Below are positions 56,297 through 61,377 of a stretch of DNA of 64,000 bases, piece after piece. A program made the position numbers and the translations under genes. The notes beneath the pieces were generated by a model. It ran no database searches. It saw only the letters and a list, made by a program, of their open reading frames with translations, and was not told the DNA's origin. Source of the DNA: Syntrophotalea acetylenivorans (GTDB lineage: Bacteria; Desulfobacterota; Desulfuromonadia; Desulfuromonadales; Syntrophotaleaceae). The DNA lies in assembly GCF_001887775.1 (NCBI RefSeq), contig NZ_CP015519.1, positions 1,798,001 through 1,862,000 of the forward strand, written 5' to 3'. Position 1 is the stretch's first letter. The number at the start of each line of letters is the position of its first letter.

Positions 56297-56898
56297 ATGA
56301 AAAAAAAACATCCTTGCCCCGACTGCCGGCGATGCCTGTGGTGCACTGACACTCGCTGCTCCGTTTGCCTGCGCGAATCAAAACCGTGTCAGCGGAAACT
56401 TTCCCAGGCCGAACAGATCGCCCTTTACGAAAGCATCAACCGCGTTCACCAACAGCAAAAAACGGAGGTTCGCATGAAAAAGCGCGCTCTGTTTCTCTGC
56501 ACCGACAACTCTTGTCTCAGCCCTATGGCTGCAGCCCTGATAAATTTTGATTTTGGCGACAGATTGGAGGCCGTTTCTGCAGGCTTGACCACCCAGGACC
56601 ACCCCCCCAAGCCACCGCGGTTATGGCCGAGCTCGGGATCGATCTCGACTCACAGGTTTCCAACTGCCTCAGCCGCTATGAACGGGAACCCTTTGATTAC
56701 GTCATCACCCTGAATACCGAAGCTGAGAAAAACTGCCCCCTCTACTTCGGTGGCGTCAAACGGCATACCATGAGGTTCACCGATCCGAGCCAGGCCAAAG
56801 GCAGCGAAGAAGAGATCCTGGCCGAATTTCGCAAGACCCGCGACGCTCTCCGTCAGCAGCTAGGTGACTTCTTCCGCCGGCAGCTGGCCCAACAATAA
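56297..56898 (+). pseudogene. Cys-rich N-terminus plus LMW phosphatase/ArsC-like domain, frameshifted
   Basis: Frame 1 (ATG 56297, GGAGG upstream) starts with a cysteine cluster, CPDCRRCLWC and CSVCLRESKPC. It continues in frame into an LMW protein-tyrosine-phosphatase-like domain that has its own ATG at 56474 with a second GGAGG. This breaks near residue 105 at a run of seven C (56603-56610 region); the rest (AELGIDLDSQVSNCLSRYER to RRQLAQQ) is in the next frame to 56898. One extra C restores a full domain. The P-loop reads LCTDNSCLSPMAA, lacking the catalytic arginine of CxxNxCRS. Confidence 0.75.
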
Positions 56899-56990: not shown

Positions 56991-57371
56991 ATGAATGCTC
57001 CCAAGGAATTACCCGCTTCCGTCATCAACGCCATTTTTGTTCTTGGCCTTTTTTCCTCCATCTGCTTCCGCGTACTGCTGGTCGCCGACGCTCTCTACCC
57101 ACCCTTGTTTCGCCCCATCTGGTATGGCGGCGTCCTCGGCTATTGCGGCTTCTTTCTGCACCGCTATCGCATCACCCGCAAACGCAAGAACGCCATCCGC
57201 GGCATGGACCTGATTGCCAAGGTTAACCAGAACAGCCTCGGAACGGAGGATCAGAAGGCCGTCAGCTATATCCTCTCCTCCATCGATCACAGCAAGGAAG
57301 GTCTCAATTATCTGATCATCTTTGTCCTCTCGGCTTTGGCCATCGCCGCCGACCTCTACCTTAGCTACTGA
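56991..57371 (+). CDS. Small membrane protein of unknown function
   Basis: From ATG 56991 the product has 126 residues: an N-terminal helix (INAIFVLGLFSSICFRVLLVADAL), a second one (IWYGGVLGYCGFFLHRYRIT), a basic loop (RKRKNAIRGMDLI), and a C-terminal hydrophobic helix (LNYLIIFVLSALAIAADLYL). No family is recognised. A TTG upstream (56916) would add 25 residues. Its 3' half is nearly identical to a broken copy at 61021-61310, about 4 kb away. Confidence 0.65.
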   Translation: MNAPKELPASVINAIFVLGLFSSICFRVLLVADALYPPLFRPIWYGGVLGYCGFFLHRYRITRKRKNAIRGMDLIAKVNQNSLGTEDQKAVSYILSSIDHSKEGLNYLIIFVLSALAIAADLYLSY

Positions 57372-57405
57372 CGCGGCTCGCTTTACCGTCTCCAGATAAA
57401 ATAAC

Positions 57406-57431
57406 GGTGCTGCCTCCTATGAGGCAGCACC
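57406..57431 (+). terminator. Hairpin terminator after the small membrane protein gene
   Basis: GGTGCTGCCTC pairs with GAGGCAGCACC around CTAT, followed by ATTTCGG. Position 35 bases after the stop fits a terminator although the T tract is short. Confidence 0.65.
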
Positions 57432-57525
57432 ATTTCGGCAGGCAAGGTGATTAGGATTTACTTTTCGGGGTCGGCGCCTCAGGGTGAGGCGCCTTGATAA
57501 AACGGTTTGAAAAGTCTGCCGAAGC

Positions 57526-57759
57526 CTATTCACCTCTCAGCGGAGAGTCAAAGGGGCAGGGGATTTTGCTGAAAGATCCGTGCTTGCCAGGAAAGGTCTC
57601 ATCAGGTTCTTCGCGGAATTGGCGCATCCATTCATACAGCGCATTGGGATGGATCTCCAGATCCGCAGCTACATCTTCACCTCTCTGATCGCTATCGGTC
57701 ACCAAGCGTACCTTTTCGACCTTAAATTCACAGGTGAAACGCCTTTTTCTCGAAACCAT
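57526..57759 (-). mobile_element. IS3-family transposase OrfA remnant
   Basis: From ATG 57759 (GGGAGGGTGCC upstream) the 77-residue reading frame has the HTH_Tnp_1 features of IS3/IS911 OrfA: SRKRRFTCEFKVEKVRLV, DLEIHPNALYEWMRQF and FPGKHGSFSK. The frame ends without the rest of OrfA or any OrfB. No intact terminal repeats were seen. It is an inactive fragment located between the small membrane gene and the MscS-type operon. Confidence 0.75.
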
Positions 57760-57948
57760 GGCACCCTCCCGTTGCTGTTTTAGCAACTTTTCGAACTTCC
57801 CAAAATTTCTGGGGAAGGTCACAAGTCTGGTCATCGCCCCTCCACCCGCCAAGCTCTCATTCGCTGTTTATTTTCAGGCCTCTATCTGTTGGCGAAACAT
57901 TTTGCTGCTACAGTATAAAGACTATTTTGCCATGGAAGGAGGTCGCCG

Positions 57949-58788
57949 ATGCCCTGGAATTCGGATTTCTGGACGGAACATGTGGGTAAGATATTGGTTA
58001 CCGACATTATGAAGTGGCTGCCGATGCTGGGGGCCGCGCTGGTACTACTGTTGGTCGGTTGGCTGGCGGCACGCCTGGCCCAATTTGCGGTTGGCGAAAT
58101 CCTCAAGCGGCTAGGTCTGGACCGGCTGGGCGAGAAGGCCGGCGCTGCCCGTCTGCTGCAAGATCTCAGCATGGACGCTTCCGTTTCACGGTTACTGGCC
58201 CGGCTGATCTACTGGCTGGTGCTGCTGGTGTTCGTGCTGGCGGCAGCTGAGAGCCTCGGCCTGCAGGGGATGAGTACCACCCTGCAAAGTGTGGTCGACT
58301 ATCTGCCCAAAGTGCTGGCAGCCATGCTGATCCTGCTGCTCGGCGGCCTGATCGCGCGGCTTGTGGGCAATACTCTGGGTGCCATGGCCGACCGTTCCGG
58401 CATACGCGGTGGGCTGGCCCTGGGGCAGGCCAGTCGCTACATTATTCTGGTTTTCGTCGGCGTGCTGGCCCTGGAGCAGCTAGGCGTGCAGACCGCCCTG
58501 CTGGTAAGCTTCGCCACCGTCCTGATCACGGCTCTAATGCTGGCCCTGGCCCTGTCCTTCGGCTGGGGCAGCAGGGAGCTCGCCCGCTGCATCATGGCCG
58601 GCTTTCACCTGCGGGAAGTCTTTCTGGTCGGTCAGATTTTGCAGGTGCGCGGCCACAGAGGTCGACTAACGGCCATCGGTCCGATCAAAACGATGCTTGA
58701 AACAGAGCTGGGCCGGGTTTCTCTGCCCAACTACGTCTTTACCGAAGAAGAGGTGGTGATCCTGCCCGAGGAAGAAAGCGATGGCTGA
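57949..58788 (+). CDS. Small-conductance mechanosensitive channel-like protein
   Basis: The 279-residue protein has three or four long hydrophobic helices, including two TM_helix (PF05552) type repeats (AALVLLLVGWLAARLAQF; PKVLAAMLILLLGGLIARL), a glycine-rich pore-like helix and a short C-terminal beta domain (VGQILQVRGHRGRLTAIG; VSLPNYVFTEEEVVIL). This fits MscS relatives of the small, conserved TM_helix type. AAGGAGGTCGCCG precedes ATG 57949. Its stop overlaps the ATG of the next gene (ATGA). Confidence 0.8.
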   Translation: MPWNSDFWTEHVGKILVTDIMKWLPMLGAALVLLLVGWLAARLAQFAVGEILKRLGLDRLGEKAGAARLLQDLSMDASVSRLLARLIYWLVLLVFVLAAAESLGLQGMSTTLQSVVDYLPKVLAAMLILLLGGLIARLVGNTLGAMADRSGIRGGLALGQASRYIILVFVGVLALEQLGVQTALLVSFATVLITALMLALALSFGWGSRELARCIMAGFHLREVFLVGQILQVRGHRGRLTAIGPIKTMLETELGRVSLPNYVFTEEEVVILPEEESDG

Positions 58789-60518
58789 TGAACAAGCAGC
58801 ATATCCGCATAAGAGACTACGTCGAGGGCAAACTCAGCGCTGAGGCCTCCCGGGAAGCCGAGGCCCATCTGCTCGACTGTAGCCGCTGCCGGCAAGCAGT
58901 GGAAGAGCTGCAGCAGCGCCGTACCGCTGGTCGCAAAGGAGGCGGACCCGGCCGTATTTTGAGCCGTTTCATCGGCGGCTTGCTGCGCGGGGAGCTAATC
59001 ATTGTTGACCCCCTGCTGGAAAGGCTGCGATTGGTCAGGCCGTTCGGGCCGCCGAAAGCCGCAACAAGCGACGAGCCGCTGCGCGTGCTGCGCCCGATCG
59101 TTCTCAGCGGGGTCAGCCGGTTGTGGCGATTCATCGGCCGTTTCGGCCTCGTGCTGTCGTTGACAGCGGGAGTCCTTTTGCTGCCTCGGCCCGAGGGACT
59201 TTCCGCTGCCGGCCAACGGGGTCTGGCCGCCTTTGTCTTTACCGCCGGCGTGTTGGCTCTGGAACCGGTGTCCCTGCCCATCGCCGCACTTATGGTACCG
59301 GTCGCCTTGGTGGCGCTAAGAGTCGCCGACACGTCCCAAGCCTTTGAAACCTTTTCCCGTCCGGTGGTTTTTCTGATTCTGGCCAGCCTGTTTCTCGCCG
59401 AAGCCCTTCGCAAACACGGCTTGACCAGGCGCCTGGCGCTACTTGCAATCGTTGCCTCGGGGGGCGGCACCGGCGCCTTACTGCTGGGTTTGATGAGTAT
59501 CTCTGCGCTTTTTTCCATGTGGGTAGGAAATACCGCCACCGCAGCCATGCTGATCCCGGTGGCCCTGACCATTTCCCGCGAGGTTTCCGATAGAGACGAG
59601 GCCGCCGACCTGCTGACACTGCTTGCTCTCGGCATTGCCTACAGCGCCAGTTTGGGAGGCATGGTCACTATCCTGGGGGCCGCAGCCAACGCCGTTGCCT
59701 CAGGCTTTCTAAGTAAAATCATGCCTTGGACCTTTCTCGACTGGCTGAAATACGGTCTGCCGGCCTTTGTGGTAATTTTTCCGCTGACCTGGCTGCTGCT
59801 GTTCAAGCTCATGCCGGTGGCGATCACACGACTCGATGTATCGCCCGCCCGGGGCCAGGTTCGGGATATGGGCCCGATGAATCGAGTGGAGCGGGAAATC
59901 CTCATCATGCTGGTCGTCACAGCCTGTCTGTGGATCGGCGGGCCTTTTCTGGAAGCCTCTTTGGGACTTCCTCCGACCCTGTTTTCCGCAGCCTTGGTAG
60001 CGGTGATGGCCGTTTGTTATTTGGCGATTCGGGAAATCATCGACTGGGAGGACCTCAAGGGGATCAGCTGGGGCATCTTTCTGATCATCGGCGCCGGACT
60101 CAGTCTGGGTGAAGCGCTGGTCCGCTCGGGCGCCACCGACTGGTTTGCGCTTCTGATTGCCCCGCTGGTAACCGGCTCGTCGCTCTTTATCAGCCTGATC
60201 CTGTTGGTGACGGTCTCTGCTCTGCTTACCAATCTGCTGAACAATACCACCATCGCCGCAGTATTCGTGCCAGTGCTGATCACCCTGGCAGCGGACCAAC
60301 CGGCTCTGAACCCCTTAATGCTGGTGTTGCCCGTAACCCTGGCGACTACCTTCGGCTATTCGCTGCCCTCGGCCTCCGGCCGCATGGCCCTTTTGGCCGC
60401 TACCGGGATCGTACCGAGGGGTACGATGTTGCGCTGTGGCCTCGTCATAACTTTAGCCAGTTCTCTGGCGCTGGCTGTGCTGTTCTATCTGCTTGCAGGG
60501 ATCGGCTGGTTCGGGTGA
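58788..60518 (+). CDS. SLC13-type transporter with N-terminal zinc-finger (zf-HC2-like) fusion
   Basis: The 576-residue protein opens with a zf-HC2 anti-sigma-like finger: EAEAHLLDCSRCRQAVEEL, with His27, Cys31 and Cys34 in the HxxxCxxC pattern. A basic linker follows, then an SLC13/DASS sodium:dicarboxylate (or anion) transporter of about 11 helices (IALMVPVALVAL, WVGNTATAAMLIPVALTI, TNLLNNTTIAAVFVPVLITL, TTFGYSLPSASGRMALLAA). NTT/SNT motif pairs for Na+ and carboxylate binding are visible (GNTATA, NNTTIA). The start overlaps the MscS-like stop. The fusion is unusual. Confidence 0.8.
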   Translation: MNKQHIRIRDYVEGKLSAEASREAEAHLLDCSRCRQAVEELQQRRTAGRKGGGPGRILSRFIGGLLRGELIIVDPLLERLRLVRPFGPPKAATSDEPLRVLRPIVLSGVSRLWRFIGRFGLVLSLTAGVLLLPRPEGLSAAGQRGLAAFVFTAGVLALEPVSLPIAALMVPVALVALRVADTSQAFETFSRPVVFLILASLFLAEALRKHGLTRRLALLAIVASGGGTGALLLGLMSISALFSMWVGNTATAAMLIPVALTISREVSDRDEAADLLTLLALGIAYSASLGGMVTILGAAANAVASGFLSKIMPWTFLDWLKYGLPAFVVIFPLTWLLLFKLMPVAITRLDVSPARGQVRDMGPMNRVEREILIMLVVTACLWIGGPFLEASLGLPPTLFSAALVAVMAVCYLAIREIIDWEDLKGISWGIFLIIGAGLSLGEALVRSGATDWFALLIAPLVTGSSLFISLILLVTVSALLTNLLNNTTIAAVFVPVLITLAADQPALNPLMLVLPVTLATTFGYSLPSASGRMALLAATGIVPRGTMLRCGLVITLASSLALAVLFYLLAGIGWFG

Positions 60519-60570
60519 AGTCCAAACCCAGCCTTTTCAGCGCAACCTTCCACAGGTACAAGGAGAAACG

Positions 60571-60915
60571 ATGCGAGTTCTGGTGATCGGCGCCGGAGTT
60601 ACCGGGGCCAACGTATTGAAACAACTGCAGAAAAATCCCGCTATCGAAATCGTGACCGCCGATCCTCGCCAAGAGCACCACGCGGTTAAAGAGGGTATCA
60701 TCGACAAGGTCGACATTCATGAGGTCCTGACACCTCTCACCTTGAAAACCGTGCTCGACCGGACTCGGCCCGATCTGGTGCTACTGGCCATGGCCGCAGA
60801 AGACATGGGACTGGGCAAGGCGCCGGGCATCGAAATCCTGGCTGACGCCCTGAAGCAAGAGATTTCGGCCCTGAGCATGGTGCCGGTGATCGAGGTGACC
60901 CGAGTGCGTCGCTAA
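60571..60915 (+). CDS. Small Rossmann NAD(P)-binding protein (TrkA-N-like)
   Basis: The 114-residue protein starts at ATG 60571, with AAGGAG five bases upstream. MRVLVIGAGVTGANVLKQL is a glycine-rich NAD(P)-binding motif, followed by a PxxRQEHH region and VLDRTRPDLVLLAMAAEDMG. It looks like a stand-alone TrkA-N/RCK or saccharopine-like nucleotide sensor and lies 53 bp after the SLC13 gene, suggesting it regulates that transporter. Function is inferred from context only. Confidence 0.65.
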   Translation: MRVLVIGAGVTGANVLKQLQKNPAIEIVTADPRQEHHAVKEGIIDKVDIHEVLTPLTLKTVLDRTRPDLVLLAMAAEDMGLGKAPGIEILADALKQEISALSMVPVIEVTRVRR

Positions 60916-61020
60916 AAGTTTGTCGGACCACGCGGGGCGAAGCGAAAATTTGCATGTTTGAGAACAGATTTCAGTTCATTTGGAGAGACTGGAAGGGCAA
61001 GCCTTTGCTAGACTTTTCTC

Positions 61021-61310
61021 ATCTGTTTTCGTGTATTGCTCATCACCGATGCCCTCTATCCGCCCCATTTTCGGTCCTCTGGTACGGAGGGGTACTGGGC
61101 TTTTTCTGCACAGTTATCGTATCACCCGCAAACGCAAGAACGCCATCCGCGGCATGGACCTGATCGCCAAGGTTTACCAGAACAGCCTCGGAACGGAGGA
61201 TCAGAAGGCCGTCAGCTATATCCTCCCCCCATCGATCACAGCAAAGAGGGTCTCAACTATCTGATTATTTTTGTCCTCTCGGCTTTGGCCATCGCCGCCG
61301 AGCGTTTTTT
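61021..61310 (+). pseudogene. Broken second copy of the 56991-57371 membrane protein gene
   Basis: The segment is homologous to 57071-57352. The middle (about 61110-61232) is nearly identical, while the 5' part is more diverged. Frames are broken: VLLITDALYPPHF in one frame, YRITRKRKNAIRGMDLIAK with YQNSLGTEDQKAVSYIL in another, and IDHSKEGLNYLIIF back in the first. One deletion is in a C-run near 61230. It has no own start or terminator and is a decayed paralogue. Confidence 0.85.
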
Positions 61311-61312
61311 CC

Positions 61313-61342
61313 AAAAAAAACGCCGCCCTGTTACGGGCGGCG
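61313..61342 (-). terminator. Intrinsic terminator of proC
   Basis: CGCCGCCC (61321-61328) pairs with GGGCGGCG (61335-61342). On the minus strand it is followed by eight T. It lies 36 bases after the proC stop. Confidence 0.85.
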
Positions 61343-61377
61343 TTCATGTTTAGCTATAATCTGCTTCGGGATCGAAG

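Follow-up and report, generated by a model that had tools for sequence, protein, structure and literature searches.

In the DASS (SLC13) cotransporter VcINDY, both SNT motifs bind the carboxylates of the substrate and also contribute to the Na1 and Na2 sites (PMC7553777). In the exchanger LaINDY, Arg159 and His392 occupy these two sites (PMC7553777) and are hypothesized to be permanent Na+ surrogates (PMC7553777, PMC9098524). In the ZAS proteins ChrR and RslA, zinc is ligated by the motif H-X24-H-X3-C-X2-C (PMC6432622). The transceptors CbrA and CrbS join an SLC5 transporter fold to a histidine kinase in one chain. In Pseudomonas, CmpX is reported to be an MscS homologue that is encoded in the cfrX-cmpX unit upstream of sigX and belongs to the SigX regulon (PMC7641640). 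RCK/TrkA systems pair an ion transporter with a small Rossmann domain encoded alongside it.

The window analyzed is a 64,000 nt stretch of the Syntrophotalea acetylenivorans genome (termed G000; other G numbers denote compared genomes). It contains an open reading frame in which a zf-HC2/ZAS-type finger is fused to a DASS permease, the second of three adjacent genes (Table 1). The 3′ end of the MscS-like gene and the start of the fusion gene share one nt (TGATG), and the Rossmann gene starts 52 nt downstream of the fusion gene, which bears out an earlier reading of the three as one operon. The order MscS-like/fusion/Rossmann and the adjacency of the genes are kept in 7/7 loci and 6/6 genomes; the seven loci represent five genomes besides G000, with the Pelobacter MAG loci L035 and L036 duplicating two genome records. 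The three genes are an operon and an obligate unit that is patchily distributed. They are strictly co-inherited, and this supports the view that their products may share a complex or pathway.

Table 1. Features of the finger–DASS locus and its surroundings (positions are those of the window).
Feature	Position	Strand	Remarks
Intact 126-aa membrane-protein gene, left insertion edge	56991..57371	+	
CmpX/MscS-like membrane protein, first operon gene	57949..58788	+	279 aa; PF05552, MscS alignment
zf-HC2/ZAS finger–DASS permease fusion	58788..60518	+	ATG start, one open frame, 576 aa
Predicted zinc site H5, H27, C31, C34	58800..58889	+	spans codons 5–34 in full
Linker, residues 48–105	58929..59102	+	poorly conserved, ends in conserved P(L/I/V)RVL.P
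HPin motif, residues 247–249	59526..59534	+	GNT here, [G/E/V]NT in orthologues, replaces SNT
L5ab loop, residues 298–301	59679..59690	+	AAAN here, replaces (S/T)PPN
HPout motif, residues 485–487	60240..60248	+	NNT replaces SNT, 6/6
L10ab loop, residues 530–533	60375..60386	+	SGRM replaces TPPN, 6/6
Small Rossmann-like protein, third operon gene	60571..60915	+	114 aa; GxGxxG ... D31
Partial duplicate of 126-aa gene, right insertion edge, next to proC	61020..61301	+	92–95% identical direct repeat

Orthologues were sought in 136 genomes of the order, 277 of the class and an even phylum sample of 395. Full-length fusion orthologues are found in six genomes (G000, G116, G117, G106, G114 and G194; 6/277 in the class), at 62–93% identity. 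An annotation artefact created by merging two genes is ruled out, as the sequence is a single open frame in 6/6 genomes. The fusion is real and conserved. The sequence-only reading had named two ways in which it could fail, absence of the zinc ligands from homologues and a fusion confined to one genome. Neither is seen: H5, H27, C31 and C34 are invariant, a search for the domain pair finds it in five further genomes, and the operon is kept. The nearest non-orthologue (G473, 37% identity) has no finger, displays the canonical SNT and TPPN motifs and has a stop codon between its two halves. None of 25 N-terminal extensions of plain DASS proteins from the same order, read by eye, contains an HxxxCxxC finger. 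A plasmid search gave plain DASS-type matches only, none covering 80% of the query, and no relevant report of a zf-HC2/transporter or SLC13/anti-sigma fusion was found in the open-access literature.

The zf-HC2 match (PF13490) spans residues 10–35, with 24.9 bits for the full-length protein and 28.4 bits for its N-terminal piece (cut-off 22.2), and all six orthologues match the model. The HxxxCxxC finger noticed earlier at residues 27–34 is present as H27-x3-C31-x2-C34, and H-x3-C-x2-C is invariant in 6/6. H5, an additional candidate ligand, and R35 are likewise kept by every orthologue. Thirteen of the first 47 positions are invariant, and these include H5, H27, C31 and C34 (hypergeometric P about 0.004). 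Purifying selection acts on the finger (dN/dS 0.16–0.29), compared with values of 0.35–0.83 for the linker and 0.08–0.10 for the membrane part. A profile of the six finger sequences has M. tuberculosis RslA as its top match (3hug, E = 1.3e-4), in register at the N-terminal His region, followed by weaker matches to RsiW (5wuq) and DdvA (8rlz); all matches are anti-sigma domains. In the profile alignment H5 lies near the N-terminal HisHis of RslA, with a two-residue gap. The spacing here is H-X21-H-X3-C-X2-C, compared with H/C-X24/25-H in ZAS domains (PMC6432622) and H-X24 in ChrR and RslA, and H5 is therefore a plausible fourth zinc ligand at a shorter spacing. The finger is like those of RslA, ChrR and RsrA in its H-x3-C-x2-C core and its RslA profile match, with the N-terminal His as a candidate fourth ligand. 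It is unlike them in its spacing and in being without a cognate sigma factor, and it is fused to a multi-spanning permease where they carry one helix or a soluble sensor domain.

The N-terminus of DASS proteins is on the cytoplasmic side. The finger is predicted to bind zinc, and by analogy with the usual placement of ZAS domains and with the DASS N-terminus it would be cytoplasmic. The linker that follows has 8 invariant residues out of 58. De novo TIM-barrel matches to it were dismissed as chance composition. In ZAS anti-sigma factors a sigma2-binding helix 4 follows the three-helix core; a helix at about residues 54–67 of the fusion protein is seen only in a very low-confidence model (mean pLDDT 37) and falls in a poorly conserved stretch.

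The permease scores 188.1 bits with Na_sulph_symp (PF00939, cut-off 27) and 240.7 bits with the NCBIfam model ‘dass’ (TIGR00785, cut-off 198.6). It is homologous to DASS permeases throughout; the VcINDY alignment spans the whole permease at residues 145–566 (E about 1e-48). The earlier description of a full SLC13 permease thus holds for the fold, which by homology appears complete. However, it does not hold for the canonical Na+/substrate motifs. Where canonical DASS permeases have SNT, SNT, PPN and TPPN, the fusion protein has [GEV]NT, NNT, an A-rich loop and SGRM, and it also carries about 110 extra N-terminal residues that make up the finger and linker. The change of the (S/T)PPN loop to an A-rich loop is found in 6/6 orthologues. 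The motifs were compared with VcINDY and with a sample of plain DASS proteins of the order, 25 for the first two motifs and 24 for the two nearer the C-terminus. All of these have SNT/PPN intact, the first SNT in 25/25 and the second in 24/24. N248 and T249 of HPin and N486 and T487 of HPout are retained in the fusion permease.

The invariant R532 falls opposite Pro423 of VcINDY, which adjoins the Na2 site. Its placement relative to that site is taken from the sequence alignment, since an AlphaFold model of the whole protein, made from three sequences (the window protein, L035 and L036), was unusable at a mean pLDDT of 37. As aligned, R532 is reminiscent of the cationic residues that are proposed to act as Na+ surrogates in DASS exchangers. 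With the motifs replaced and an Arg in the Na2 loop, it is thus reasonable to infer that the fusion permease may operate Na+-independently. Other DASS subgroups in the compared genomes (L100–L105) also depart from SNT/PPN, and motif loss therefore need not mean a corresponding loss of Na+ coupling. One of these subgroups, L100–L104 (G106, G041, G116, G110 and G135), displays the motifs SEH, GGARAP, SNA and TPANA. Its GGARAP places an Arg at the Na1-loop position, pseudo-symmetric to R532, and by its motifs this is likely another Na+-independent group.

The first operon gene encodes a protein that matches PF05552 in two stretches (62.4 bits, over the cut-off) and falls below the NF033912 cut-off (59.3 bits vs. 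100). Its residues 115–261 align weakly with residues 24–167 of E. coli MscS, including TM3 and the upper beta domain (E = 4e-4). Full-length matches (residues 1–276) occur in the class only in the six genomes and always beside the fusion gene; other relatives match residues 5–218 only, at about 29–35% identity, and end near residue 215. The protein is like CmpX in being a small MscS-type protein, a likeness judged by family (PF05552/MscS) and not by direct alignment to CmpX. Unlike the case of CmpX, there is no sigma gene at the operon.

The Rossmann protein is confined to the same six genomes as the fusion (6/277). It has weak similarities to TrkA_N, DapB_N and Sacchrp_dh, all under cut-off, e.g. 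17.2 bits with TrkA_N (PF02254) against a gathering score of 23.8. Its AlphaFold model (pLDDT 75) displays a generic Rossmann fold. A profile search of the PDB gave no significant match. The family is left unspecified because Foldseek matches to the model are generic and none has an E-value below 0.001. The arrangement is like RCK/TrkA systems in that a small Rossmann domain, with TrkA_N among its weak matches, is encoded with a transporter. It is unlike them in that all these matches are under cut-off and the structure search is generic.

A further likeness to RCK/TrkA is an SLC13/CitMHS permease with two TrkA_C domains that adjoins the operon in four of the six genomes (G116, G117, G114 and G106, not G194 or G000). 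Coordinates of this permease are L039:9999–11876, L041:5866–7818 and L042:5588–7492. It is divergent from the operon in three genomes and co-directional in one, and the G117 copy was recognized by similarity to the G116 copy. In G000, two TrkA_C matches fall within one 603-aa frame about 43 kb from the operon (C1:1902288).

In G000 the operon sits in an insertion of approximately 3.7 kb (57370–61301) that is absent from the congener G120. The latter lacks the operon and has a single copy of the 126-aa gene about 130 bp from proC. The fusion protein of G114 is 80% identical to that of G106, which is from another family, and 63–64% identical to those of G116 and G117 from its own genus; the G000 protein is 80–81% identical to those of G116 and G117. 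These identities point to horizontal transfer of the three-gene unit. Strong terminator-like hairpins of 14 and 11 pairs (57403–57434 and 61318–61345) flank the operon at both ends of the insert. Upstream of the operon, the insertion also contains what was judged by eye to be an IS3-type OrfA-like fragment (MVSRKRRFTCEFKVEKVRLV...) at 57526–57852 on the minus strand. A low-molecular-weight phosphatase/arsenate-reductase-like gene at 56297–56898 is divided between two reading frames close to a C run at about position 56600, and the congener copy aligns as two overlapping pieces; a frameshift or a sequence error is possible.

The explanation of the locus that we hold, with moderate confidence, is that of a Na+-independent DASS permease with a zinc-finger docking or regulatory domain that works with its operon partners. 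The fusion protein would be an inner-membrane permease of DASS/SLC13 fold with a cytoplasmic N-terminal ZAS-type finger. Most likely the finger, structured by zinc, would serve for docking or regulation and link the permease to a partner protein. The first candidate partner is the co-inherited Rossmann protein, which may bind a nucleotide and read NAD(H) or redox state, and the second is the MscS-like protein; both the partner and the substrate are inferred. To judge from its motifs, the permease probably works without Na+ coupling, whether it transports an anion or only senses one. The place of the bound cation would be taken by R532 in the Na2 loop, by analogy with the Arg and His of DASS exchangers. 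CbrA and CrbS provide an analogy of architecture only, as there too a transporter fold and a regulatory module share one chain; the transporter family differs, and the fusion has a zinc finger instead of a kinase.

The sequence-only reading suggested that the transporter may sense its substrate or redox state and hold a sigma factor or another partner, with the channel and the NAD-binding protein as helpers. The sigma-factor part of this, in its fullest form, is a membrane-bound anti-sigma transceptor, with the permease as substrate sensor and an ECF sigma factor bound or let go by the ZAS finger. The finger's nearest relatives by profile (RslA, RsiW and DdvA) are consistent with this, as are a weak match of all six fusion proteins to an NCBIfam anti-sigma model, the existence of transporter–sensor fusions in other families (CbrA) and the tie of CmpX to the ECF factor SigX in Pseudomonas (PMC7641640). 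However, the ECF neighbours that such a role called for are not there: profiles of sigma-70 regions 2 and 4 detect no sigma gene within 40 kb of the operon in the six genomes or, where genomes are fragmented, on the operon contig. G000 has five sigma70-family factors, one ECF and four others that are read as RpoD, RpoS, RpoH and FliA from their size and, for FliA, a position among flagellar genes. The single ECF gene is directly 5′ of its own zf-HC2 anti-sigma protein, and apart from the fusion no further protein of that genome exceeds the zf-HC2 cut-off; G114 likewise has one ECF adjoining its own zf-HC2 anti-sigma protein. The pairing was established for these two of the six genomes. In addition, every NCBIfam anti-sigma match of the G000 fusion protein is far under the curated cut-off, and the stretch expected for the sigma-binding helix 4 is among the least conserved. 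With no sigma gene near the operon and the ECFs of G000 and G114 already paired, an anti-sigma role is therefore unlikely and the transceptor as a whole quite improbable, though a role in trans is least dismissible in G106 and G194, which carry more ECFs. No sigma factor goes with the operon, so the finger more likely docks with or regulates the transporter than controls genes.

The finger may also be a structural or assembly module only, e.g. for folding, pairing of the DASS homodimer or membrane targeting, in a transporter that is otherwise constitutive. Zinc is structural and not sensory in some ZAS proteins (RsiW; PMC7406223), the linker is weakly conserved, and most plain DASS proteins of the order carry unrelated N-terminal extensions of about 83–123 residues. 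However, this leaves unexplained why the fusion is so strictly co-inherited with its two operon neighbours, and we regard it as rather unlikely. Changes in four of four ion/substrate motifs, and the free variation of the HPin serine position (G, E, V), would fit a permease that is a non-transporting receptor, in which anion sensing at a degenerate site would be passed on by the finger to a partner other than a sigma factor. Against this, constraint on the protein is strongest in its membrane part and the HPin and HPout Asn and Thr residues are conserved, and a receptor of this kind seems improbable. The Na+-independent permease with a docking or regulatory finger could be extended to a new transporter–sensor class, in which the finger would report transport state or redox to the Rossmann protein and the MscS-like channel, the three genes forming a mobile unit. 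This extension is offered tentatively.

The zinc-finger DASS protein is a conserved case in which an anti-sigma-type finger belongs to a secondary transporter and has no sigma factor within reach, and it bears on the roles of zf-HC2 domains outside of transcription. Annotation pipelines would label it either as a plain DASS symporter or, by its N-terminus, as an anti-sigma factor, and each name would be misleading. For the DASS family, the fusion permease is a natural variant with a rebuilt substrate/Na+ site that includes an invariant Arg, and it offers a test of whether fixed cationic side chains take the place of Na+, as has been proposed.
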